Assembly (NCBI RefSeq): GCF_035918095.1
Contig: NZ_CP109137.1
Location: 3,846,001-3,910,000 of the forward strand
Reading direction: 5' to 3'
DNA length: 64,000 bases
Source: Streptomyces sp. NBC_01750
GTDB taxonomy: Bacteria; Actinomycetota; Actinomycetes; Streptomycetales; Streptomycetaceae
The notes below the pieces were generated by a model. It was not told the origin of the DNA, made no database searches, and worked only from the letters and a program-made list of their open reading frames with translations. Both the position numbers and the translations under genes were made by a program. Numbering within the stretch: the stretch's first letter is position 1; every line of letters begins with the position of its first letter. Of the stretch, positions 49,394 to 63,396 are shown piece after piece.

Positions 49394-49572
49394 CAACCAC
49401 GCGACGGAGGAGCACAGAACTTTGCCGGGATCCGGCAACGTGGCGGCGCCGCGTGCGCGCATGGGAGACCTGTCAATGTCGCGTATGGGACGTGTAAAGT
49501 CCAGCGTGGTGTGCCGGGAAGCCTGGTCGGCGAATTCGAGAGAGCTCTCTTTGCCGATCAGGGGACACCCTC

Positions 49573-50814
49573 ATGGTGCTCGTTGCCGTTTTCGGAGTCG
49601 CACTGCTCATCGCGGTGCTGCTCTCCGGGCTTGCCGCCCGTACCGTCCTGTCCACGTCGTTCCTCTTCCTCGTCGGCGGGGCGCTGGTCAGTGACGGCTT
49701 TCTTGGCCTGATTCACATCACGCCGGACAGCGAGATCGTCGCGGTCACCGCGGATCTCGCCCTGTTCGCGGTGCTGTTCACGGACGGCATGCACGTCTCT
49801 TTCCCGAAGTTGCGGGCCAATTGGAAGAACCCGGCGCGGGCTCTGGGCCTGGGCATGCCGCTGGCGTTTGTCGGCATGGCCCTGATCACGCACTATGTGG
49901 TGGGTCTGGACTGGACGACGTCGTTCCTGGTCGGTGCGGTGCTCGCGCCCACCGACCCGGTGTTCGCCTCCGCGATCGTCGGCCGCAAGGAAGTCCCGGC
50001 CAAGCTGCGGCAGTTGCTGAATGTGGAGAGCGGCATCAACGACGGCCTCGCCCTGCCGGTCGTCCTGATCCTCATCGCCGCGGCCGGCCCCACGGCGGGC
50101 CCCGCGCACGCGTCGCTCGGGAAGATCGCCCTGGAGCTGGGAGGCGGCCTCGCCCTTGGCATCGTGCTGCCGCTGCTCGTCACGGGCCTTGTGCGGTTCC
50201 GGCTGCTCGGCGCGGAGCCGAAGCTGCAGTCGTTGTTGCCGCTGGCCACCGGGATCATCCTGTATGGGCTGTGCCACCTCACCCACACCAACTCCTACCT
50301 CGCGGCCTTCTCCGCCGGTGCCGTTCTCACCGCGGCGTCCCCGGAGGCGAAGGCGGCGTTCGAGACGCTCGGTGAGGCACTGGCCGAGCTGGCCAAGTTC
50401 GCGGCCCTGCTGGTCTTCGGCGCGCTGCTGACCCCGCAGCTGTTCGGCGACCTCTCCCTCGGCGGGTACGTCGCCGTGGTCCTGGCGATCGTGCTCATCC
50501 GCCCGGCATCGCTGCTGATCTCGCTCATCGGAACGCGGTTCGACCGACGGGAGAAGCTGGTCGCGGCGTGGTTCGGGCCGAAGGGCTTCGCATCGGTGGT
50601 GTACGGCCTGCTGGTGCTGCAGTCCGGCATCCCGCACGGCCAGGAGGCGTACACCCTGATCGCGGTCTGCATCGCGGCCTCGATCATCGCCCACAGCAGC
50701 ACGGACGTGCCCATCGCCCGCCTCTTCCACGTCGAGGACCTGACGGGCATCCCCGCCGACAACGACGCAGCGGAAGTTCGCCACAGCGAGGAGACCGGCC
50801 ATGCTCGCGCCTGA
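49573..50814 (+). CDS. CPA1-family cation/proton antiporter
   Basis: A 413-residue antiporter with about 12 helices. LAPTDPVFASAIVGRKEVPA carries the TDP ion-binding motif, and LLNVESGINDGLALPVVLIL the ESGxND motif of CPA1 exchangers. No RCK tail is present; instead a small CBS protein overlaps its 3' end by 14 bases. GTG/ATG choice: ATG at 49573. Likely Na+(K+)/H+ exchange for pH or salt stress. Confidence 0.9.
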   Translation: MVLVAVFGVALLIAVLLSGLAARTVLSTSFLFLVGGALVSDGFLGLIHITPDSEIVAVTADLALFAVLFTDGMHVSFPKLRANWKNPARALGLGMPLAFVGMALITHYVVGLDWTTSFLVGAVLAPTDPVFASAIVGRKEVPAKLRQLLNVESGINDGLALPVVLILIAAAGPTAGPAHASLGKIALELGGGLALGIVLPLLVTGLVRFRLLGAEPKLQSLLPLATGIILYGLCHLTHTNSYLAAFSAGAVLTAASPEAKAAFETLGEALAELAKFAALLVFGALLTPQLFGDLSLGGYVAVVLAIVLIRPASLLISLIGTRFDRREKLVAAWFGPKGFASVVYGLLVLQSGIPHGQEAYTLIAVCIAASIIAHSSTDVPIARLFHVEDLTGIPADNDAAEVRHSEETGHARA

Positions 50815-51052
50815 CCTCACGGAGCCCTACCCCTCCGTCTCGACGGACGACAACGCCGTGGACGCAGCCCGGCTGCTCGTCGAGCACAAGCTGCCCACGC
50901 TGCTCGTGGTCGACTCCGATCAGCGGCACGCTCTCATGGCCCGGACCGACACCCCACTGGTCGCCGTCATCGAACGCGACGGGGACCAGGTCCGGCTGGT
51001 GGGTGCCATCACGGCCGCCCGCCCGTTGGAACGACTCATCGGAGGATCGTGA
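50801..51052 (+). CDS. Minimal CBS-domain protein (apparent internal-deletion form)
   Basis: An 83-residue protein. Residues 10-45 (SVSTDDNAVDAARLLVEHKL, PTLLVVDSD) match the start of CBS1 of the larger CBS protein at 52737 (SVSVDSDALDAARLMAEHRL). Residues 46-83 (MARTDTPLVAVIERDGDQVR, LVGAITAARPLERL) match the end of its CBS2 (MARLRSPLVAVAEKTKGGTH). It therefore reads as the larger protein with its middle 75 or so residues removed, giving one composite CBS unit. Overlaps both neighbours, so it is coupled to the antiporter and the permease. Confidence 0.7.
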   Translation: MLAPDLTEPYPSVSTDDNAVDAARLLVEHKLPTLLVVDSDQRHALMARTDTPLVAVIERDGDQVRLVGAITAARPLERLIGGS

Positions 51053-52347
51053 ACGACTGGCAGAGCTGGGCCGCGATCGTCGTCTTCGCCGGCACGTACG
51101 CCCTGATCATCAGCGAGAAGATCCACCGCGTGGCGGCCGCCCTCGGGGGCGCCGGGCTGATGCTGGCGATCGGGGCGACCGACGACGAGTCCGCCTTCTA
51201 CTCCGTGCACAGCGGCATCGACTGGAACGTCATCTTCCTGCTGATGGGCATGATGATGATCGTCGGCGTGCTGAAGAAGACCGGCATGTTCGAGTACCTG
51301 GCCATCTGGTCCGTGAAGAGAGCCAGGGCCAGGCCCTTCCGGGTAATGACCATGCTGGTCGTCATCACCGCGGTGGCCTCGGCGCTGCTCGACAACGTCA
51401 CCACCGTGCTGCTCGTCGCCCCGGTCACCCTACTGGTGTGCGAACGGCTCGCCCTGCCCGTCGCCCCGTTCCTGATCGCCGAGGTCCTGGCCTCCAACAT
51501 CGGCGGCATGGCGACCCTCGTCGGCGACCCGCCGAACATCATCATCGCCAGCCGAGCCGGCCTCACCTTCAACGACTTCCTCGTCCACCTCGCCCCGCTG
51601 TCCGCTCTGCTGATCGTGGTCCTGATCGCGCTGTGCCGCTTCCTGTTCCGCAAGTCCTTCGTCTACGACGAGGACCGCGCGGCAGAGGTGATGGACCTGG
51701 AGGAGCGCGAAGCCATCCGCGACCCCCGGCTCCTGGTCCAGGGCCTGATCGTGCTCACCCTGGTCGTCGCCGGATTCGTCCTGCACCCGGTGCTCCACTA
51801 CGAGCCCAGCGTCGTCGCGCTGCTGGGCGCCGGCCTGCTCATCGCCCTGTCCACCGCGGAAACCGGTGAGGTGCTGGCCGAGGTCGAGTGGCCCACCCTC
51901 GCCTTCTTCGCCGGGCTGTTCATCATGATCGGCGGCCTGATCGAGACCGGCGTCATCGGCGAGGTGTCCAAGGCCCTCGCCGACGCCATCGGCGACAACG
52001 AACTGGGCGGCTCCATGCTGCTGCTCAGTGCCTCCGCCGTGCTGTCCGGCATCATCGACAACATCCCGTACGTCGCCACCATGGCGCCCATCACGAGCGA
52101 CCTGGTCGAGGCGATGGGCGGCGACACGAACCACGTCATGTGGTGGGCCCTGGCCATCGGCGCGGACCTCGGCGGCAACGCCACCGCCATCGGCGCCAGC
52201 GCCAACGTCGTCGTCCTCGGCATCGCCGAACGCAACCGCACCCCCATCTCCTTCTGGCAGTTCACCAAGTACGGACTCGTCGTCACCGCCGTCACCGTGG
52301 CGATCTCGGCGGGGTACGTCTGGCTGCGCTACTTCGCCCTGGCCTGA
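51049..52347 (+). CDS. NhaD/ArsB-type ion permease (IT superfamily)
   Basis: A 432-residue permease with 11-12 helices. Features: IDWNVIFLLMGMMMIVGVLK, ALLDNVTTVLLVAPVTLLVC (the DNVTT motif), ASNIGGMATLVGDPPNIIIA (GDPPN motif), SGIIDNIPYVATMAPITSDL and ADLGGNATAIGASANVVVLG in the second half. These are the paired hallmark loops of NhaD/ArsB/CitM proteins. GTG at 51049 overlaps the small CBS gene (GTGA). Sodium or an oxyanion could be the substrate; the cation-antiporter context favours Na+/H+ exchange. Confidence 0.85.
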   Translation: MNDWQSWAAIVVFAGTYALIISEKIHRVAAALGGAGLMLAIGATDDESAFYSVHSGIDWNVIFLLMGMMMIVGVLKKTGMFEYLAIWSVKRARARPFRVMTMLVVITAVASALLDNVTTVLLVAPVTLLVCERLALPVAPFLIAEVLASNIGGMATLVGDPPNIIIASRAGLTFNDFLVHLAPLSALLIVVLIALCRFLFRKSFVYDEDRAAEVMDLEEREAIRDPRLLVQGLIVLTLVVAGFVLHPVLHYEPSVVALLGAGLLIALSTAETGEVLAEVEWPTLAFFAGLFIMIGGLIETGVIGEVSKALADAIGDNELGGSMLLLSASAVLSGIIDNIPYVATMAPITSDLVEAMGGDTNHVMWWALAIGADLGGNATAIGASANVVVLGIAERNRTPISFWQFTKYGLVVTAVTVAISAGYVWLRYFALA

Positions 52348-53281: not shown

Positions 53282-54155
53282 TCAGAGCTGAGCTCTGCCG
53301 TGATCTTCCGCGTAGGCCTGGTAGATGTCGTGTGGTGTGCCACCGGTGTGGAGAAAACGCTGGTCGAGGATGGTGGAAAGGTCCGTCAGTGCGGTGGTGA
53401 GCAGGGCGGCGGCGAACCGCACCTCGGCGTGGTGCGCGTTGCCGGCACGGTCGGCGAGGTGGGCGGCGTAGCGGACCCTGGCGGCCAGTGAGGTGTGATC
53501 CTCGCCTTCGTGGAAGTAGTAGGACTCGGCGAACTGGAGGAAGTCCACCGAGATGCGCGCCACTTCCCCGGCGAGGTTGTCCAGGACGACCGCTCCCAGA
53601 GGGGAGTCGAGCTGCGGCGGCGAGGGATCGTTCCGCTGCAACTGGGACAGCCGCAGAGCCAGTGTGCATCTGCGGGCGAGCGCCGGGATAGATTTCCAGC
53701 ACCCAGGAGACCGTGGCCGTGAGCAGAGCGAAGCCGACGAGGGCCTCCAGGGGCGCGACGATACGCAGCCACGGCTCGGTCGGGGTGATGTCGCCGAGCC
53801 CGAGCGCCGCCACGGTGACCAGCGAGATGTACAGCGAATCCACCGGCCCGCCGTGCTCGGCCGGCTTCAGGCCCGCAGCGAACGAGAAAGCGTCCGGCAG
53901 GTGCGGCCAGTAGATCAGTGCCCATCCCACGACGACAGTGCCCGCCCACATCGCCACCACTGTCACCATGGCGAGCGGACCGGCCAGCCCTGCCGCCCGT
54001 CTGCGAAGAGTGAGGCGCTGGGACAGTCTCCACAGCGCCGCCATGACGTGCCGGCTCAGCCCTCCGTGACGGGTGGGGTGCCACAGAGTGTGGAACACGT
54101 CCCGCAGCGCGACCATGAGGAGTGCTGCTCCGACCAATGAGACCAGCCATTTCAT
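53282..54155 (-). pseudogene. Two-helix ion channel with C-terminal domain, frameshifted
   Basis: ATG at 54155 starts MKWLVSLVGAALLMVALRDV. Helices and a pore loop follow: AMVTVVAMWAGTVVVGWALI, SLYISLVTVAALGLGDITPT (ion-channel pore; GLGD replaces GYGD), ALVGFALLTATVSWVLEIYP. At about 53681-53688 a single extra base breaks the frame; in the next frame the protein continues ALARRCTLALRLSQLQRNDP and a soluble helical domain to YQAYAEDHGRAQL and stop at 53282. The tail is well kept, so the lesion is recent or a sequencing error. Confidence 0.65.
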
Positions 54156-54306
54156 ACGCGTCTCCCAGAACGTGGCGTATGCGTGCCCAGCATGCACGGC
54201 AGCCCGCCCGGTCCCGCGCAGGCCACGCCTCAGTGGTTGGCAACTCGCTGCGCCCAGAGGTGCACTGGGCTCAGTCCCCCGCCGGGCATGCGGACGGCCT
54301 GAGCGC

Positions 54307-55368
54307 TCAGAGATCCTTGTTGGGCCAGTCCAGCAGCCGGGCGCCGATGACCGCTGTCTGGAGGGTGTAGCGGTGGACGGGGTCGCCGGGATCGGCTCCT
54401 GTCAGCTTGTGTATGCGGTCGAGCCGATAGGTCATGGCCCGGACGCTCAGGGAGAGACGCCGGGCTGCCTCGGCGGCCACGCAGCCGGTGTCGAAGTATG
54501 CGGTGAGCGTGTCGATCAGCGGCTGGGCGCCGCCGCGTGCCTGTTGGAGCGGGCCGAGAACGCTCCGCACGAGGTCGGACATGGCTTGCCGGTCCCGGGT
54601 GAGCACTGGATAGACCAGGAGGTCGGCGGCATGCAGCACGGGGCCTTCGAGGTCCATGCGTGCGGCCAGGTCGAGGGCGTTCAGTGCCTCCTCGTAGGAG
54701 TGGACGACGCCGCCGGCGCCTGGATGGGGGCGGCCGATGGCCACCCGGCCGCCGTCCGTTCCCGCGTAGGCCTGCTTGGCGAAGAAGCTCAGTACATCGG
54801 GCTGGTCACCGGGCGCGATGCAGATCAGCCGGCCGTCCTTCGTGGTGAGCAGGATGCGGCGGTTTCCGAAGCGGGCGACGAGGGACGACTCGATCCGCCG
54901 GGTGACGGGAAAGCCGTCGTCGTACTGCTCTGCACCTTGCGCCACAGCGACGGCGTGGGCATGGGAGAGAAGCAGTCCGAAGCGTTCGGCGCGCTCGGCG
55001 AGGCGGCCGAGGTCGCTGCGCCCGTAGAGCAGGTCGTCGATGAACTCGCGGCGGGCCGCCTCCTCCTGACGCACAGCCAGTCGCTGGGCGCGCTCATGGC
55101 CCTCGGCGAAGGCGTCCACAGACTGCTCGACAGCGGCGAGCAGATGGTCGGCAGCGGAACGGGGCAGCTCTGGCTGCACGGTCTGGGCGGCACAGAGGTG
55201 GGCTCGGACCAGAGCACGCAGCCCCATGCCTGCCTCTGCGGCCCGCTCCCCCCTGGTCCGGAGCGATTCCAGTTCATCGCGGGTCAATTTCCGGCCAGTG
55301 GCACAGGCAGCGGCCAGGACCTGGGCATACCCCTCCAGATACTCCTCGGGTATCCCTTGCTCCGCCAT
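54307..55368 (-). CDS. PucR/CdaR-type transcriptional regulator
   Basis: A 353-residue regulator. An N-terminal helical part (1-120; EYLEGYAQVLAAACATGRKL) precedes a GGDEF-like sensor fold (about 170-270; RILLTTKDGRLICIAPGDQP, VAIGRPHPGAGGVVHSYEEA) and a C-terminal PucR HTH_30 (about 290-345; LIDTLTAYFDTGCVAAEAAR, RLSLSVRAMTYRLDRIHKLT). ATG at 55368 with GGGGAGGAA. Divergent from the YqiJ/flotillin/ATPase operon across 264 bases that hold a perfect palindrome. Probably its specific regulator; the inducer is unknown. Confidence 0.85.
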   Translation of the reverse strand: MAEQGIPEEYLEGYAQVLAAACATGRKLTRDELESLRTRGERAAEAGMGLRALVRAHLCAAQTVQPELPRSAADHLLAAVEQSVDAFAEGHERAQRLAVRQEEAARREFIDDLLYGRSDLGRLAERAERFGLLLSHAHAVAVAQGAEQYDDGFPVTRRIESSLVARFGNRRILLTTKDGRLICIAPGDQPDVLSFFAKQAYAGTDGGRVAIGRPHPGAGGVVHSYEEALNALDLAARMDLEGPVLHAADLLVYPVLTRDRQAMSDLVRSVLGPLQQARGGAQPLIDTLTAYFDTGCVAAEAARRLSLSVRAMTYRLDRIHKLTGADPGDPVHRYTLQTAVIGARLLDWPNKDL

Positions 55369-55632
55369 GGTTCCTCCCCGTTTCCTGACGCGCTGATGAC
55401 GACTTCCTGGCGCGCAGAGGTCAAGGGTGGCATGCACGCTCCGAGGGTTGGTTACCGGCATCAAGGAGCCATAAAGATTGCCGGTGTACGGCAATGCGAA
55501 CAGGGCTACAGCGCTGTCAGGATGTGCTGAGCCGGGCGGAGGGACAGATCTTCTGCCGGAAGCCGGAAAGGAGCACCCAGCTCCATGGTCCGGCGGATGT
55601 GACTCGTGGTCCGCGCATGAAGGGGATGACCG
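55369..55632. other. Divergent promoter region of the flotillin locus
   Basis: 264 bases without a gene. It contains the palindrome at 55477-55495 and a partial TACCGGCAT similarity at about 55453. No known sigma-factor consensus is convincing. Confidence 0.4.
55477..55495. promoter_or_regulatory. Candidate PucR-type operator
   Basis: ATTGCCG-GTGTA-CGGCAAT, perfect 7-bp arms with a 5-base spacer, near the middle of the divergent region between the regulator and the operon. It is AT-flanked in a GC-rich genome. Assignment to the PucR protein is inference. Confidence 0.6.
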
Positions 55633-56244
55633 GTGGCTGAGTTCGTTGAGGCTGCTGCCGGGTTCCCCACGGTGTTGTTCACCTCGGCGCTCGTGGTCGT
55701 GATCGGCTTCTGGCTGCTTGTGCTGCTCGGCGCCGCCGACTCCGACAGCTTCGACGCTGATGTGGACACCGACGCGCTGAGCCTCGGCGGAGTGCCTGTC
55801 GCTGTGTCGGTCTCGCTGGTGATCGCCCTGGCGTGGTTCGCAAGCTTTACCGGCTCCGTACTTCTCGCCCGTACGGGCATGTCCGGTGCCCTGTTCCATC
55901 TGCTCGGCGCGGCTTTGCTCGTCGCCTCCCTGATCTTCGCGTGGCGCATGACGCGGCTGCTCGTGCGACCGCTGGCGAAGCTGTTCCCCGATGAACCCGG
56001 GCCGTCCCGGCAGGACTTCGTGGGGCTGACCTGCACCATCCGCACGGGGCGGGTGGACGCGGACTTCGGCCAGGCGGAGGTCGTCGCGCGGGACGGCTCC
56101 ACAGCTGTCGTACAGGTCCGCCAGACCGGCACAGATGCACTGCCCCTGGGCAGCACAGGGCTCCTGTACGCCTACGACGACGCCGGCGAGTTCTTCTGGG
56201 TCGCGCCCTACGACACGGCGCTCGACCCCTGCACCGCCGCCTGA
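55633..56244 (+). CDS. YqiJ-like membrane protein with OB-fold (DUF1449-type)
   Basis: A 203-residue protein. Three or so membrane helices (VLFTSALVVVIGFWLLVLLG; VPVAVSVSLVIALAWFASFT; LFHLLGAALLVASLIFAWRM) precede a C-terminal OB-like domain (about 130-200; FVGLTCTIRTGRVDADFGQA, STAVVQVRQTGTDALPLGST). This is the architecture of YqiJ/NfeD proteins that pair with flotillins and tether or stabilise them. GTG at 55633 after GGGGATGACC. It lies 39 bases before the flotillin gene. Confidence 0.7.
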   Translation: MAEFVEAAAGFPTVLFTSALVVVIGFWLLVLLGAADSDSFDADVDTDALSLGGVPVAVSVSLVIALAWFASFTGSVLLARTGMSGALFHLLGAALLVASLIFAWRMTRLLVRPLAKLFPDEPGPSRQDFVGLTCTIRTGRVDADFGQAEVVARDGSTAVVQVRQTGTDALPLGSTGLLYAYDDAGEFFWVAPYDTALDPCTAA

Positions 56245-56283
56245 GCCTTCGCTCTTTCTCCACCTCTCACCCGAGGACTTCTC

Positions 56284-58329
56284 ATGGATGCCATCACCAT
56301 GGGCATCGGCTTGCTCGTCGCCGTTGTCCTGCTCATAGCCATCGCCATGCTCTTCGTCATCAGCCGACTGTTCCGGAAGGTGGAGCAGGGCAAGGCGCTG
56401 ATCGTGTCGAAGATGCGGAAGGTCGACGTCACCTTCACCGGACAGGTCGTGCTGCCCGTGCTGCACAAGGCCGAAGTCATGGATATCTCGGTGAAGACCA
56501 TCGACATCTCCCGGACCGGTCGCGACGGGCTCATCTGCCAGGACAACATCCGCGCCGACATCCGGATCTCGTTCTTCGTACGGGTCAACAAGACCGTCGA
56601 GGACGTCATCAAGGTCGCCCAGGCCATCGGCACCGCCCGGGCGAGCGACCAGGCGACCCTCCAGGAGCTCTTCAACGCGAAGTTCAGCGAGGCGCTGAAG
56701 ACGGTCGGCAAGCAGCTCGACTTCACCGATCTCTACACCAAGCGCGATGAGTTCCGGGACCGCATCATCCAGGTCATCGGCACCGACCTGAACGGCTACA
56801 GCCTCGAGGACGCCGCGATCGACTACCTGGAGCAGACACCGCTCGCGCAGCTGGACGCCAGCAACATCCTCGACGCCCAGGGCATCCGGAAGATCACCGA
56901 GCTGACCGCTGTCGAGCACGTGCGCACCAATGAGTTCCAGCGCCATGAGGAGAAGGAGCTCACCCGGCAGAACGTGGACGCCCGTGAGGCGATCCTGGAG
57001 CTGGAGCGCCGCCAGGCGGACGCCGAGATCAAGCAGAAGCGCGAGATCGAGACGGTGCGGGCCCGTGAGGAGGCGGAGACCGCGCGGGTGGTCGAGGAGG
57101 AGCGGCTGCGGGCACAGAGCGCCTTCCTCAAGACCGAGGAGCAGCTCGGCGTGCAGCGGGAGAACCAGGGCCGCGAGGTCGCCGTCGCCGCGAAGAACCG
57201 CGAGCGCGTCATCGCCGTGGAGAACGAGCGCATCGAGAAGGACCGGCTGCTGGAGGTCATCGCCCGGGAGCGGGAGACCGAACTGACCCGTATTTCCGCC
57301 GAGAAGGAGGTCGAGGCTGAGCGGCGCGACATCGCGGAGGTCATCCGGGAGCGGGTGGCGGTGGACCGTACGGTCGCCGAGCAGGAGGAGTCGATCAAGA
57401 AGCTGCGTACCGTCGAGGAGGCCGAGCGCAACCGCCAGGCCATCGTCATCGCGGCGGAGGCCGAGGCGCAGGAAAAGCTGGTCAAGGACATCAAGGCGGC
57501 CGAGGCGGCCGAGCAGGCCGCTGTGCACCGGGCGGCGGAGGAGCTCACGCTCGCCGAGGCCCGTGGCAAGGCCGCCGACATGGACGCCCGCGCCAAGATC
57601 CGGCTCGCCGAGGGCATCCAGGCGGAGGCCGCGGCCGAGGGCCTCGCCGCCGTGCAGGTACGGGAGAAGGAAGCCGACGCTATTGAGAAGACCGGCCGTG
57701 CGGAGGCCGGAGCTGCGCAGGCCCGACTGCTGGCCGAGGCCGAAGGAGTACGGGCGAAGGGCGCGGCAGGGGCAGCGGCGATCGGGGACAAGCTCAAGGC
57801 CGAGGCAGAAGGCCTGACCGAGAAGGCTGCGGCCATGGCCGCACTCGACGACGCCTCGCGCGGGCACGAGGAGTACCGACTGCGCCTGGAGGCGGAGAAG
57901 GACATCCGCCTGGCGGGACTTGACGTGCAACGGCAGGTCGCCGAGGCACAGGCCACGGTCCTCGCCACCGGTCTCGAGAACGCCGACATCAACATCGTCG
58001 GCGGCGAGTCCGTCTTCTTCGACCGGCTTGTGCAGTCCATCTCCCTGGGAAAGAGCATCGACGGGTTCGTCGAGCACTCCCAGACTGCTCAGGCTCTCGC
58101 GAAGCCGTGGCTGGACGGATCCGCGTCTTTCACCGACGACCTGACGAAGGTGCTGGGCTCCGTCTCCACAGGTGATGTGCAGAATCTGACCGTCTCCGCG
58201 CTGCTCCTGAACCTGATGCACACCGGTGTCGCGCCCGCAGCCCAACTGAACCAGCTTCTCGACAAGGCAGGCGAGCTCGGCCTCGCCGACACCCCGCTCA
58301 CCGCGCTCAACGGGTCCGTCAGGGCCTGA
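56284..58329 (+). CDS. Flotillin-like SPFH protein (YqiK family)
   Basis: A 681-residue scaffold. One N-terminal membrane helix (GIGLLVAVVLLIAIAMLFVI), an SPFH/band-7 domain (about 30-200; VTFTGQVVLPVLHKAEVMDI, DNIRADIRISFFVRVNKTVE, VIQVIGTDLNGYSLEDAAID-type segment), then a very long Ala/Glu/Arg coiled coil (about 215-580) and a short soluble tail. Such proteins oligomerise in the inner membrane and organise microdomains. The coiled coil has long AEA repeats. Sits between YqiJ-like and the giant ATPase, in one operon. Confidence 0.92.
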   Translation: MDAITMGIGLLVAVVLLIAIAMLFVISRLFRKVEQGKALIVSKMRKVDVTFTGQVVLPVLHKAEVMDISVKTIDISRTGRDGLICQDNIRADIRISFFVRVNKTVEDVIKVAQAIGTARASDQATLQELFNAKFSEALKTVGKQLDFTDLYTKRDEFRDRIIQVIGTDLNGYSLEDAAIDYLEQTPLAQLDASNILDAQGIRKITELTAVEHVRTNEFQRHEEKELTRQNVDAREAILELERRQADAEIKQKREIETVRAREEAETARVVEEERLRAQSAFLKTEEQLGVQRENQGREVAVAAKNRERVIAVENERIEKDRLLEVIARERETELTRISAEKEVEAERRDIAEVIRERVAVDRTVAEQEESIKKLRTVEEAERNRQAIVIAAEAEAQEKLVKDIKAAEAAEQAAVHRAAEELTLAEARGKAADMDARAKIRLAEGIQAEAAAEGLAAVQVREKEADAIEKTGRAEAGAAQARLLAEAEGVRAKGAAGAAAIGDKLKAEAEGLTEKAAAMAALDDASRGHEEYRLRLEAEKDIRLAGLDVQRQVAEAQATVLATGLENADINIVGGESVFFDRLVQSISLGKSIDGFVEHSQTAQALAKPWLDGSASFTDDLTKVLGSVSTGDVQNLTVSALLLNLMHTGVAPAAQLNQLLDKAGELGLADTPLTALNGSVRA

Positions 58330-58413
58330 GCGCGGGCACCGACCGGGCCTGTGGCCGCCGAACGGGGGTCGGCGGCCACAGGCCCACTCTTGAGAACCAG
58401 GAAAGGTTTTCCC

Positions 58414-61400
58414 ATGGCGACGGCGACAACGGTGCCGACGGCGGGTGGCATGGACGCCGGTACGTACGAGGTGCTGCGCGACCGGCTCGCTGCGCAGGCC
58501 ATTGAGCTGGCCCGGCGCGCCGAAGCCCTCAACTCGGCCCGTATCGCGGAGTTCGGTTCCACCGAGCTTGCTCTGACCGGCACCGAGCGCATCAGCACCG
58601 AGACAGCCTGTCTGCCGCGCGACATCGTCGTCGTCGGCGACAAACTGCTCTTCGGGTGCAGCGCCTTGGCCGCGCTGACGCCCCGGACATCGGTCGGCGA
58701 CGTCTTCACGCTCTACGACCGTGACCTGAACCGGCTGGCGGAAGACGCCGCTCCCGGCCTTCTGGACGACGCGGACTTCGTACAGGAATTCGCCGCCCTG
58801 TGCCGCTACTACCAGGGCGCGCGTCTGACCAGGCTGCGTCGCGTCGAGGACAGGCTTCTGGCCGTGTTCCGCACCGGTGAGAAGGCCGAGGACATACGCG
58901 TCCTGCGCTGGGCGCTGACTCCGGCCGGAGAGGCACGTTTCATGGATGCCCGCGGGGAGCGCGACCACTCCTCCCTGCCCTCGCACGACGTCACATGGGT
59001 GGAAACCGCCCGCGACGACCACGTGCTCGGCCGGCACCCGCACATCTCCATCGGCGCAGAACTCTTCGTCGCGACGGTCGGCGGCACCCTCACAGTGAAG
59101 AGCGAGAACGACACGGAGTCGGGCGAGGGTATATACAGCGAGGGGGTCGACGAGCCGCTGCAGTCGCTCGCCGACGCGGAGGTCGCGTACGCCCGCGTGG
59201 GCACTCTGATCCTGCTGCGCGTCCGCCCCTACAAGGAGGACAACCCGCGCCATCTGGTGTTCAACGCCCTCACGAAGTCCGTGGTGCGCCTAGACGGCAT
59301 CGGGCGGGCCTGCCGCCGGCTGCCCGACGACCAGGGCATCGTTTTCCCCGGTGGCTACTGCCTGGCCACCGGCGCGGTGAAGACCTTCGATGCGCAGACG
59401 GCTGCGGACTGGGAGTTCGAGCGCGCTGTGCGCTCCCCGAACGGCGAGGACGTGTTGTACGCCTTCCACTCCAGGGACGAGGGCCGCAGCCTGCTGCTGC
59501 CCTACAACCTGATCCGCAAGGAGGTCGCCAGCCCGCTTTCCTGCCGCGGTTACGACCTCTTCGACGACGGCACACTCGCCGTCCTGCGTGCCCCCGACTC
59601 CGACGAGCCGGCCCGCATACACCTGGTGCAGCTCTGGCGGAGCCCGTACGTCTGCGACACCCACGCGGCCGCCACGCCCGTCGGCTCCGGGCCGCTCGCC
59701 CGTATCGGCAACGCCGACCTGGTCCGTGGCATCTCCGACTGCCTGGCCATCGCCCGCCAGGCCACCGAAACCACCCCGCCTGGCGAGTTGTACGAGGCTC
59801 TCGTCGCGGTCTGTACCCGCGCCGCCGACCAGTACCACTGGCTGGGCGACGCGGACGCCGGGGATCTGCGCTCTTTGCTGGACGACGTGCGGGCCACCGC
59901 AGGGCAGGTCCTGGACGAGTTCGAGACCGTACAGACGCTGACCCGCCAGGCGGCCGACGCGCTCGATGAGTCAGCCGCGCAGATCGGCAGACTGGTCCGG
60001 CGCATCCGCGGCGAGGCACCCGCCTCCGCGGAAGAGTGGATCGCTCGCATCACCGAACTGCGCGCGTCCCAGGGGCACCTGATGACCCTCAAGGAGATGC
60101 GCTACGCGGACACCGAGCGCATCGAGGCGCTCGCGCACGACGTCGAGGCGGACATCGCCTCCGCCGCACAGCGAGCGGTGGCCTTCCTCCGGCGCGAAGA
60201 CGCCTTCGCCGGCTATCACACGGAGGTCGAGCAGCTCACCGCCGACGCCGAGACGATCGCCACCGTCGCCGAGGCGGGGCCGGTCGCGGAACGCCTGGAA
60301 GAGCGGGCCCTCGGACTGCAGACGCTCACCGAGGTCGTCGCGGGCCTGAATATCGGTGACGCGACCGTGCGCACCTCGATCCTGGAGCGAATCGCCGAGG
60401 TCCTCGGCGGTGCCAACCGCGCCCGCGCAACCCTGCACGGCCGCCGCCGGGAACTCCTCGACCGGGAGGGCCGCGCCGAGTTCTCGGCCGAATTCGCACT
60501 GCTCGGGCAGTCGGTGACCGGCGCACTGGCCGCTGCCGACTCCCCCGAGAGCTGCGACGCACAGCTGGCCCGGTTGCTGCTCCAGCTGGAGAACCTGGAG
60601 TCGCGCTTCGCCGACCACGACGACTTCCTCACCGACATCGCTCAGAAGCGAGCCGAGGTCTATGAGGCGTTCTCGGCGCGCAAGCAGACGCTTCAGGACG
60701 CCCGCGCCCGGCGTGCGGAACGGCTCGCGGACTCCGCCCTTCGGGTCCTGGACGCGATCGTGCGCCGTGCGTCCACCGTGGACAGCCTCGACGCGGTCAA
60801 CACGTACTTCACCTCGGACCCGATGGTGGCCAAGGTCCGCCACACCGCGGAGGAGCTGCGCACACTCGGCGACCAGGCGCGGGCGGAGGAGCTGGACGGC
60901 AGGCTGAAGGCCGCTCGCCAGGAGGCGGGACGGGCACTGCGCGACCGTACCGAGCTGTTCGCGGACGGCGGCGGAACGATCCGGCTGGGCCGGCACCGCT
61001 TCGCCGTCACGACACAGGCGCCGGAACTCACCCTCGTCCCGCACGGGGACGGCCTGGCGTTCGCGCTGACCGGCACCGACTACCGCTCTGCCGTCACCGA
61101 CCCCGAGTTCACAGACACCCGTCCTTACTGGAGGCAGCCGCTGCCGTCCGAGTCGCCCGAGGTCTATCGGGCGGAGTACCTCGCAGCCAGGATGCTGGCC
61201 GAGCACGGCGCCGAAGCACTGTCGGGAGGCGACCTGCCCGCCGTCGTACGGCAGGCCGCGGAAGCGGCGTACGACGAGGGATACGAGCGCGGCGTCCACG
61301 ACGATGACGCGACGGCAATCCTCAGCGTTGTGCTGAGGCTGCGCGAGGATGCCGGACTGCTGCGCTACCCGGCTGCCGCCAGGGCAGCGGCCCAGCTGTT

Positions 61401-63396
61401 CTGGGCGCACGGGACGACACCGTCAACACGGGAGACGTGGACCCGTCAGGCGATCTCGTTGATCCGGGCGCGTGAGATGTTCGGCAGCGCCCCGGCACTC
61501 GACGCACTGGGGGCCGAACTGGGCGGCGCGATGGCCGCGTTCGCATCCCGCATGCCGGGCACACAGCCGTACGGGCAGGGCATCGCGGCCGAGTACCTGC
61601 TTGAGGAGCTGTCCTCCGGAGAGTCCTTCGCCACGAGCGCAGCGGCCCGTACCCTGCTCGACAAGTTCCGCCGGGCTGTCGGCTCGTCCCCGTACGACGA
61701 GGACGTACGCGCCCACCTTGCGGCCCAGGACGCCGCCGGCGCGCACCGGCTCGTCGAAGGCTGGCTCCTCTCGTACGCGGCCAGCTGCGGCGAGAACATC
61801 GACCCCGGCGACCTCGCCGAGGCCGTCGCGCTCGAGGTAACTCCCGCCCTGCCACGCCACGACGTGGACGCACCCATGACGGCTGCCGTCGGCGGCCTGC
61901 TCGGCACGCACCCGCGGATCACCCACCGCACCCTGCAGCTCCGACTCGACGAATTCCTCCACCGGACCGCCGACTTCGCCGACCGGGTCGCCCCGGGCTT
62001 CCGCGCGTACCAGAAACTGCGCGCCACGCTCGTCGCCGCCGAGCGCACCCGGTTGCGCCTCGACGAATACCGCCCCCGCGTCATGTCCTCGTTCGTACGC
62101 AACCGGCTCGTCGACGAGGTGTACCTGCCCCTCATCGGTGACAACCTCGCCAAGCAGCTCGGAGCGGCCGGAAACGGCAAGCGGACCGACAGCAGCGGTC
62201 TGCTGCTGCTCGTCTCGCCGCCCGGCTACGGCAAGACGACGCTCATGGAGTACGTCGCCGACCGCCTCGGCCTGCTTCTGGTGAAGGTCGACGGACCGGC
62301 CCTCGGCCGCACCACCACCTCCCTGGATCCGGCGGAGGCGCCGGACGCCACAGCCCGCCAGGAGGTCGAGAAGATCAACTTCGCGCTGGCGGCAGGCAAC
62401 AACGTCCTGCTGTACCTGGACGACATCCAGCACACCTCACCGGAGCTGCTGCAGAAGTTCATCCCGCTGTGCGACGCCACCCGCACCCTGGGCGGCCACG
62501 ACCTGCGCGGCAAGCGCTTTGCGGTCTGCATGGCCGGCAACCCCTACACCGAGTCCGGGCAGCGCTTCCGCATCCCAGACATGCTCGCCAACCGCGCCGA
62601 TGTCTGGAACCTCGGCGACGTCCTGACCGGGAAGGAGGACGTCTTCGCGTTGAGCTTCATCGAGAACGCCCTCACCTCCAACCCGGTCCTCGCTCCTCTC
62701 GCCGGACGGGACCGCGCCGACCTCGACGTGCTCGTCCGTCTGGCGGCCGAAGACCCCACTGTCCGCCGCGACCTGCTCGCGCACCCGTACGCACCCGCCG
62801 AGCTCGACCGGATCCTCGCCGTACTGCGGCATCTGCTCACCGCCCGCGAGACGGTCCTCGCGGTCAACGGGGCGTACATGGCCTCCGCCGCCCAGTCCGA
62901 CGCCACTCGCACCGAACCGCCTTTCCAGCTCCAGGGCTCGTACCGCAACCTGAACAAGATTGCCCAGCGCATCGTGCCCGTCATGAACGCCTCGGAACTC
63001 GCAGCCGTCATCGACGACCACTACAAGGGCGAGGCCCAGACCCTCACTGCGGGCGCCGAGGCCAACCTCCTCAAGCTCGCCGAACTGCGCTCCACCCTGA
63101 CCGATAAGCAGGCCGCCCGCTGGGCCGAGATCAAGTCCCCCTATGCACGCCGACAGGCGCTGGGCGGCCCCGAGGAGGACCCCCTCACGCGGGCCGTGGC
63201 CGCCCTCGGCCTGCTCGCCGACCGGGTGGCCGCGGTGGAATCCGCGATCGTCCGGGCTGCCGATCCCCGCCATTTGCTCAGCGCTCCTCACGCCACGGGA
63301 CACGAGGCGAATCCCAAAGGATCACGTGACCGGCAGGACGGGGAAAGGTCAGGTTCGGGGCCTGGGGCCGCACGTACGCTTCCGGTCGATCGGTAG
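58414..63396 (+). CDS. Giant AAA ATPase (DUF3686-type 'DNA repair ATPase')
   Basis: A 1660-residue protein. The N-terminal part (about 20-470) looks beta-rich with repeats such as DRLLAVFRTGEKAEDIRVLR and is the region I recall as DUF3686. Residues about 520-870 are coiled coil. The AAA module is at about 1265-1420: Walker A PPGYGKTTLMEYVADRLG, Walker B NVLLYLDDIQHTSPELLQKF, sensor 1 FAVCMAGNPYTESGQRFRIP, and arginine-rich region after it. No membrane segment. Often annotated DNA repair ATPase without direct proof. It lies 84 bases behind the flotillin gene, suggesting that the two act together at the membrane. Confidence 0.8.
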   Translation: MATATTVPTAGGMDAGTYEVLRDRLAAQAIELARRAEALNSARIAEFGSTELALTGTERISTETACLPRDIVVVGDKLLFGCSALAALTPRTSVGDVFTLYDRDLNRLAEDAAPGLLDDADFVQEFAALCRYYQGARLTRLRRVEDRLLAVFRTGEKAEDIRVLRWALTPAGEARFMDARGERDHSSLPSHDVTWVETARDDHVLGRHPHISIGAELFVATVGGTLTVKSENDTESGEGIYSEGVDEPLQSLADAEVAYARVGTLILLRVRPYKEDNPRHLVFNALTKSVVRLDGIGRACRRLPDDQGIVFPGGYCLATGAVKTFDAQTAADWEFERAVRSPNGEDVLYAFHSRDEGRSLLLPYNLIRKEVASPLSCRGYDLFDDGTLAVLRAPDSDEPARIHLVQLWRSPYVCDTHAAATPVGSGPLARIGNADLVRGISDCLAIARQATETTPPGELYEALVAVCTRAADQYHWLGDADAGDLRSLLDDVRATAGQVLDEFETVQTLTRQAADALDESAAQIGRLVRRIRGEAPASAEEWIARITELRASQGHLMTLKEMRYADTERIEALAHDVEADIASAAQRAVAFLRREDAFAGYHTEVEQLTADAETIATVAEAGPVAERLEERALGLQTLTEVVAGLNIGDATVRTSILERIAEVLGGANRARATLHGRRRELLDREGRAEFSAEFALLGQSVTGALAAADSPESCDAQLARLLLQLENLESRFADHDDFLTDIAQKRAEVYEAFSARKQTLQDARARRAERLADSALRVLDAIVRRASTVDSLDAVNTYFTSDPMVAKVRHTAEELRTLGDQARAEELDGRLKAARQEAGRALRDRTELFADGGGTIRLGRHRFAVTTQAPELTLVPHGDGLAFALTGTDYRSAVTDPEFTDTRPYWRQPLPSESPEVYRAEYLAARMLAEHGAEALSGGDLPAVVRQAAEAAYDEGYERGVHDDDATAILSVVLRLREDAGLLRYPAAARAAAQLFWAHGTTPSTRETWTRQAISLIRAREMFGSAPALDALGAELGGAMAAFASRMPGTQPYGQGIAAEYLLEELSSGESFATSAAARTLLDKFRRAVGSSPYDEDVRAHLAAQDAAGAHRLVEGWLLSYAASCGENIDPGDLAEAVALEVTPALPRHDVDAPMTAAVGGLLGTHPRITHRTLQLRLDEFLHRTADFADRVAPGFRAYQKLRATLVAAERTRLRLDEYRPRVMSSFVRNRLVDEVYLPLIGDNLAKQLGAAGNGKRTDSSGLLLLVSPPGYGKTTLMEYVADRLGLLLVKVDGPALGRTTTSLDPAEAPDATARQEVEKINFALAAGNNVLLYLDDIQHTSPELLQKFIPLCDATRTLGGHDLRGKRFAVCMAGNPYTESGQRFRIPDMLANRADVWNLGDVLTGKEDVFALSFIENALTSNPVLAPLAGRDRADLDVLVRLAAEDPTVRRDLLAHPYAPAELDRILAVLRHLLTARETVLAVNGAYMASAAQSDATRTEPPFQLQGSYRNLNKIAQRIVPVMNASELAAVIDDHYKGEAQTLTAGAEANLLKLAELRSTLTDKQAARWAEIKSPYARRQALGGPEEDPLTRAVAALGLLADRVAAVESAIVRAADPRHLLSAPHATGHEANPKGSRDRQDGERSGSGPGAARTLPVDR

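Follow-up and report, generated by a model that had tools for sequence, protein, structure and literature searches.

We analysed a 64,000-nucleotide stretch of Streptomyces sp. NBC_01750 (contig NZ_CP109137.1, positions 3,846,001 to 3,910,000; hereafter the window), in which the gene for a PucR-type transcription regulator stands divergent from three co-directional genes encoding a YqiJ/NfeD-like membrane protein, a flotillin and a giant ATPase. Our analyses of gene linkage, co-occurrence, predicted folds, and operator conservation and placement suggest that a PucR-controlled regulon couples this flotillin-anchored, MoxR-type machine to cation/proton antiport, and we put the probability of this reading at about one half. 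In Streptomyces, the operon would have been recruited into a cation/proton-homeostasis regulon, where the regulator would bind the palindrome TGCCGG-N3-CCGGCA in three places, presumably as an activator: next to pucR itself, before the YqiJ-flotillin-ATPase operon and before an exchanger-CBS-ArsB/NhaD-type operon. A disturbance of ion or proton gradients would then induce scaffold and pumps jointly, the inducing stress probably being ionic or alkaline. The apparent common control with sodium/proton pumps by one regulator suggests that the module helps the membrane cope with ionic stress, and a role in ionic or envelope stress is the one we favour. For bacterial flotillins of this kind both a clear trigger and a clear partner have been lacking. 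If real, a regulon producing scaffold, ATPase and pumps jointly would supply the two, and a defined candidate operator common to the exchangers turns a vague scaffold idea into concrete, cheap tests. The three-gene association is not new, being already in print; the operator, the putative co-regulation with the exchanger and the predicted MoxR-type fold are what is new relative to that description (Ravi et al. 2024, PMC11237479). The original prediction for this locus, a model's note on the sequence, had missed the published description, the fold, and the cation-transport genes to the left of pucR.

The pucR gene (54307..55368, minus strand, 353 amino acids) encodes a GGDEF-like domain and a C-terminal HTH_30 domain (Pfam GGDEF_2 and HTH_30). 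On the plus strand lie the genes for the YqiJ/NfeD-like protein (55633..56244, 203 amino acids), the flotillin with an SPFH/Band_7 domain and a long coiled coil (56284..58329, 681 amino acids), and the ATPase (58414..63396 from its ATG, 1660 amino acids), whose frame stays open upstream as far as a GTG at 58351. Frames and translations agree with the divergent layout, with gaps of 39 and 84 bases, that the original prediction had described. No NCBIfam family scored above its cut-off in the locus proteins.

A candidate operator at the flotillin and exchanger promoters

Between pucR and the YqiJ-like gene lies a candidate operator, ATTGCCG-GTGTA-CGGCAAT (55477..55495, unstranded), with a position weight matrix (PWM) score of 37.3. 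The palindrome, whose consensus is gAAcacTGCCGGnanCCGGCAATGCG, was present in all 45 divergent pucR-YqiJ/flotillin regions, although the matrix was trained on those same 45 promoters, which are therefore non-independent evidence. Upstream of the YqiJ-flotillin-ATPase operon it was found in 73 of the 82 Streptomyces operons with enough upstream DNA, a count that omits three loci without a flotillin match and seven with too little upstream DNA. Among operons with a pucR match (≥55% identity) within 3 kb, 45 of 49 had the palindrome. Outside the training set, 28 of the 33 operons lacking such a match also carried it (among these 28, L033 and L150 have pucR slightly beyond 3 kb and L028 has a weaker pucR match nearby), so the site appears to follow the flotillin-ATPase operon even without an adjacent regulator gene. 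Random Streptomyces windows totalling 780 kb gave no PWM match at a score of ≥8. None of the 32 non-Streptomyces operons had the palindrome, and the two PWM matches above 12 in the non-Streptomyces locus L095 are not upstream of its flotillin.

A second candidate operator, TTGCCGG-GAT-CCGGCAA (49422..49438, unstranded, PWM score 30.8), stands 135 bp before the gene for a Na+(K+)/H+ exchanger (49573..50814, plus strand, Pfam Na_H_Exchanger). The palindrome preceded the exchanger gene in 21 of 32 promoters, at 131-173 bp upstream, and in the alignment of these 32 promoters the operator columns were on average 0.81 conserved, against 0.61 for the whole upstream region. In a separate count of exchanger copies located far from the ATPase, of which 20 out of 29 were fetched, 10 of the 20 also had it.

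A strict, long form of the pattern gave 82 listed places in 75 of the 199 Streptomyces genomes sampled, against 2 for a reversed control. At least 68 of the 82 lay either in a pucR promoter or ahead of this flotillin gene. There were 14 other places, one of which (genome G076) is by its coordinates just before its flotillin; the remaining 13 were fetched. They included two YqiJ-like matches (L260, L269), pucR-ArsB-CBS-exchanger clusters (L264, L269), a KhtT/KhtU region (L270), and two cases in which a small membrane protein precedes a canonical flotillin (Pfam-confirmed in L259, by eye in L268). One Streptomyces genome without the ATPase has pucR and the site, followed in a row by genes for a small membrane protein, a canonical flotillin (Band_7 and Flot), and TrkA_C and Na_H_Exchanger proteins resembling KhtT/KhtU (L272, 4454-8444); the small membrane protein is NfeD-like by position only and had no Pfam match. 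A broader proposal, which we offer tentatively and with more doubt than confidence, is that a genus-wide Streptomyces PucR regulon, working through this palindrome, ties NfeD/YqiJ-flotillin scaffolds to Na+(K+)/H+ antiporters whether or not the ATPase is present, and that the flotillin-docked ATPase acts directly on the antiporters or their membrane domain. If true, this would be a raft-based, ATP-driven controller of cation/proton antiport.

At the genome level, a pucR homologue (E ≤ 1e-60) was present in 102 of 105 ATPase-bearing Streptomyces genomes versus 45 of the 94 others (lists compared by hand). Literature searches returned nothing relevant on PucR with flotillin, or on the PucR family with a Streptomyces antiporter.

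Cation-transport genes near the module

To the left of pucR in the window, three genes in overlapping frames encode the exchanger, a small CBS-domain protein (50801..51052, plus strand, Pfam) and an ArsB/NhaD/CitMHS-type transporter (51049..52347, plus strand, Pfam); farther left are genes for TrkH, TrkA and a sulfate-permease-like protein. One Streptomyces plasmid carries in a single stretch TrkG-TrkA-exchanger-CBS-ArsB, pucR, a NAD-binding potassium-transport protein, a small hypothetical gene where YqiJ would be expected, the flotillin and the ATPase. Using ion-transporter queries fixed a priori, which came only from the window and this plasmid, we found a match within 10 kb in 31 of 87 other non-redundant Streptomyces loci (four duplicates dropped) versus 1 of 40 random Streptomyces windows (Fisher p 1.7e-5; mean flank about 16 kb, random windows 19.5 kb). 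The exchanger lay within 20 kb of the ATPase for 18 of its 33 copies in ATPase genomes, where 0.16 would be expected. Overall, pucR and ion-transport genes were the most recurrent neighbours of the module.

The side and order of the ion-transport genes vary among loci, and on the ATPase tree their presence changed at least 17 times (parsimony minimum; 29 positives among 78 Streptomyces loci flanked by 5 kb on either side). Genes for NhaA, KhtT/KhtU-like proteins, a TrkA_N-domain protein and a symporter-like protein also recur near the module, a descriptive finding with names given partly by eye. NhaA, KhtT/U, AGCS and one potassium channel set were discovered in these same loci and were kept out of the 31/87 count.

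Several observations weigh against the proposed coupling. Nine of the 82 Streptomyces operons had no operator, 56 of the 87 Streptomyces loci had no a-priori ion gene within 10 kb, and seven of the other strict-pattern places precede genes without a recognisable name. Most transporter genes near the module lack a site of their own: the operator was found at 0/15 ArsB, 0/20 CBS, 0/9 TrkA, 1/7 TrkG and 0/17 KhtT/KhtU genes, and at 1/19 NhaA, 1/13 AGCS and 4/26 potassium channel genes, though transcription from the exchanger promoter could extend to ArsB and CBS. Related species, moreover, do not provide independent promoters. The bare core TGCCGN5CGGCA was not specific in the genome under study (88 sites vs 71 in the control) and was rejected as a genome-wide marker. 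Exchanger and ATPase presence correlate weakly (31/14/74/80, p 0.017), which leaves the exchanger as a weak genome-level predictor of the ATPase. Finally, the 35 non-Streptomyces loci had neither a pucR match nor any a-priori ion-transporter match within 10 kb (one NhaA match, L126), a result in which the Streptomyces queries may have missed distant transporters; the ionic role may thus not be ancestral. The original prediction had the locus respond to a stress through PucR, and of this the regulatory part is suggested by the conserved candidate operator beside pucR, but its absence from these 35 loci gives no support to the regulator as a fixed part of the locus.

Distribution of the flotillin-ATPase pair

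DUF3686, the Pfam family matched in the N-terminal part of the ATPase, was above cut-off in 105 of the 199 Streptomyces genomes. The flotillin query matched all of these and one more genome, G197, which has a partial copy, making 106. Flotillin and ATPase thus occur together in 105 genomes, with the partial flotillin alone in one and an ATPase remnant alone in another (G104). The flotillin gene adjoins the ATPase gene on the same strand at 105 of 107 ATPase places, and at the other two it is on a different contig. Decayed or split copies were seen as well, namely the lone ATPase fragment in G104 (L062) and a DUF3686 region split in two in G145.

The family is frequent in Streptomyces and scarce outside it in the phylum-wide sample, where 9 of 396 genomes had it, 8 of them of the same genus (2 of 236 genera). 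A scan of a genome collection gave at least 537 relatives. Among the best 80 loci, which include Actinomadura, Micromonospora, Nocardia, Saccharothrix and two proteobacterial metagenome-assembled genomes, the flotillin lies directly upstream of the ATPase in 77, and the other three begin at a contig edge. A plasmid collection held 13 records with a match, some of them chromosome-sized, including Deinococcus, Hymenobacter and Pseudomonas pQBR103. The genes therefore stay together beyond Streptomyces, which the original prediction had named as the point to check; since the arrangement recurs across Streptomyces and in other phyla, it is far beyond chance. On pQBR103 (L144), a gene of the phospholipase D family lies about 9 kb downstream of the operon, and on the Hymenobacter plasmid (L146) a LexA-family regulator gene is just upstream of it.

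The patchy distribution and the plasmid records would suit an anti-phage defence machine at the membrane, which the original prediction had entertained. PADLOC gave nothing beyond weak partial matches, namely a stretch of about 30 residues around the Walker motif to IetA (E 0.003) and an E1-E2 match of the neighbouring TrkA-like protein (E 0.0009). Neither 50,697 phage records nor, by pattern search, viral contigs yielded a relative, and the recurrent neighbours, pucR and transporters, point away from defence. Such a role is very unlikely.

Predicted architecture of the ATPase and its partners

The ATPase matched DUF3686 at 5.5e-186, together with DUF7902 and a P-loop AAA family. Its Walker A (SPPGYGKTT), Walker B (DDIQH) and sensor 1 (MAGNPYT) motifs, which the original prediction had picked out, were invariant in 16 aligned ATPases. 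Fold modelling covered the parts on either side of residues 500-1160. A WD40-like beta-propeller was predicted for the N-terminal part (DUF3686 region, 58504..59838, plus strand), and the nearest predicted folds of the AAA+ domain (nucleotide-binding core at 62194..62550, plus strand) were the MoxR-type proteins NorQ and CbbQ, with Vps4-type AAA+ scoring below them. The ATPase is thus predicted to combine a WD40-like propeller with a MoxR-type AAA+ domain.

Databases mostly name this protein otherwise. A search with the ATPase matches 4572 proteins, and among the 120 matches listed, most of those that have a source name bear the label DNA repair ATPase. A DNA-repair ATPase is what the inherited name of DUF3686 and these records would imply, and a flotillin mutant of S. 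oneidensis (SO1377) does show more spontaneous mutation, which its authors tied to iron and oxidative stress (PMC1468410). The strict pairing of the ATPase with a membrane flotillin and the predicted MoxR-type AAA+ domain and propeller speak against repair. No repair gene was recognised in the recurrent neighbour clusters (names partly by eye), and literature searches found no paper naming DUF3686 or pairing flotillin with 'DNA repair ATPase'. We found no support for the annotation beyond the inherited name, as the original prediction had cautioned, and hold a repair role to be most improbable.

NorQ and CbbQ are activators of client proteins, NorQ serving nitric oxide reductase. The resemblance raises the alternative that the ATPase is a MoxR-type chaperone for the maturation of one membrane complex, with the flotillin as a mere membrane dock; the exchangers, whose operon has the same operator, could be the clients. 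No VWA partner was noticed among the Pfam-scanned neighbours in the window or in the recurrent neighbour clusters, though no genome-wide search was made, and no single client gene was linked to the module outside Streptomyces in the loci examined. The AAA+ domain here also differs from NorQ and CbbQ in being joined to a propeller and to another long region, and in being encoded beside a flotillin. A dedicated chaperone of this kind is rather improbable.

The flotillin matched Band_7 at 1.9e-9 and had no match to the Pfam Flot domain; its translation has a hydrophobic N-terminus and a long charged stretch. A C-terminal stretch of the form HEE[YF]R...IVGG...GKxVDGF is common to most ATPase-linked flotillins, with HEE[YF] in 109 and the GKxVDG-like part in 97 of the 119 extracted (from 124 loci, 5 of which yielded no frame; some of the frames used may be incorrect). 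It was not found in five ATPase-free flotillins compared (E. coli, Agrobacterium, Thioclava and two Streptomyces). As a lead only, this signature may be a docking site.

No Pfam family matched the YqiJ-like protein above cut-off. A profile of 10 such proteins had YuaF (2k14) as its top PDB match, over the C-terminal part, at E 0.025, and one Deinococcus relative had a sub-threshold NfeD match; 6 of 7 YqiJ-like or other proteins scanned had no NfeD match. By tblastn, YqiJ was found in 35 of 40 loci, the remainder being possibly too diverged. The YqiJ-like assignment of the original prediction is supported by its position next to the flotillin and by the YuaF match; its OB fold is weakly supported.

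NfeD/YqiJ proteins and flotillins are known to form oligomeric scaffolds, and MoxR-type ATPases are client-remodelling rings, which makes the scaffold the probable site of action of the ATPase. Since the genes stay together beyond Streptomyces, a flotillin-docked ATPase is likely, judging from genomic context. The YqiJ/NfeD-like protein and the flotillin would form a scaffold on the membrane, on which the ATPase, with its propeller, a helical middle and a C-terminal MoxR-type AAA+ ring subunit, would dock through contact with the flotillin and spend ATP on remodelling membrane proteins or the scaffold itself.

Relation to known flotillin systems

Operons of Band-7/flotillin, YqiJ/YuaF and an AAA+ protein with a coiled coil and beta-propeller were described in a survey of the phage shock protein (PSP) system, in which abbreviated operons without PspA are widespread and a potassium channel is mentioned in a related PspA operon (PMC11237479). 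The window holds the same three genes, including the propeller AAA+ ATPase and the adjacent YqiJ/YuaF-like protein. The full form in that survey has a CesT/Tir-PspA dyad, and the window has the abbreviated form. The main text of the survey makes no mention of PucR, antiporter, Streptomyces or DUF3686.

This kinship suggests a PSP-like envelope repair, in which the module and PspA proteins encoded elsewhere would remodel damaged membrane, and transporters would be co-induced as leaky membranes lose their gradients. It is favoured by pQBR103, which carries YjfI-PspA genes about 4 kb before the YqiJ-flotillin-ATPase genes, and by the Hymenobacter plasmid, which has Tir chaperone-PspA directly before them, both as published (PMC11237479). 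The genome under study has three PspA genes, all far from the locus. We regard PSP-like repair as doubtful, and prefer the coupling to cation/proton antiport.

Two further systems bear on that coupling. The SPFH2/NfeD2 operons YqiJ-YqiK of E. coli and YuaF-YuaG of B. subtilis have the NfeD-like protein directly before the flotillin, as here (Hinderhofer 2009, PMC2636767), whereas the flotillin in the window is longer, has an extra C-terminal stretch and is followed by the ATPase. The flotillin-T of Bacillus halodurans is alkali-inducible, as cited in a review (PMC4453477), and so ties a flotillin to alkaline, cation/proton stress of the kind proposed here. To our knowledge, no ATPase or PucR operator is known at flotillin-T.

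A conserved leader before exchanger and nhaA-like genes

The most conserved stretch upstream of the exchanger gene (0.97 over the 32 aligned promoters) was its leader (49499..49575, plus strand), a candidate structured RNA in which GGUGUGCCGGGAAGYCUGGUCGGCG was near-invariant across 27 aligned leaders. There was no Rfam match, and covariation pair counts were not above those of shuffles. A model built from the 27 exchanger leaders alone also matched, in 13 loci, where nhaA-like genes begin (7 assigned by tblastn match, 6 by the N-terminal sequence of the frame), and it had matches in 170 of the 199 Streptomyces genomes; 26 random windows gave one weak match, at 20.8 bits. The leader is thus a candidate cation-related RNA, and being common to exchanger and nhaA-like genes it could sense the same ions. 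No paper on such a leader (riboswitch, Streptomyces, nhaA) was found by title or abstract. The element was also seen before small open reading frames resembling STAS-domain proteins by eye (L229, L230, L134).

Other features of the window

A 1648-amino-acid antisense open reading frame (54307..59253) is the PucR frame read far upstream and was judged an artefact of GC-rich sequence. In a gene for a two-transmembrane ion channel (53282-54197, minus strand, Pfam Ion_trans_2), the frame apparently breaks after about 178 codons and the rest seemingly continues in another frame; it may be a pseudogene or reflect a sequencing error.

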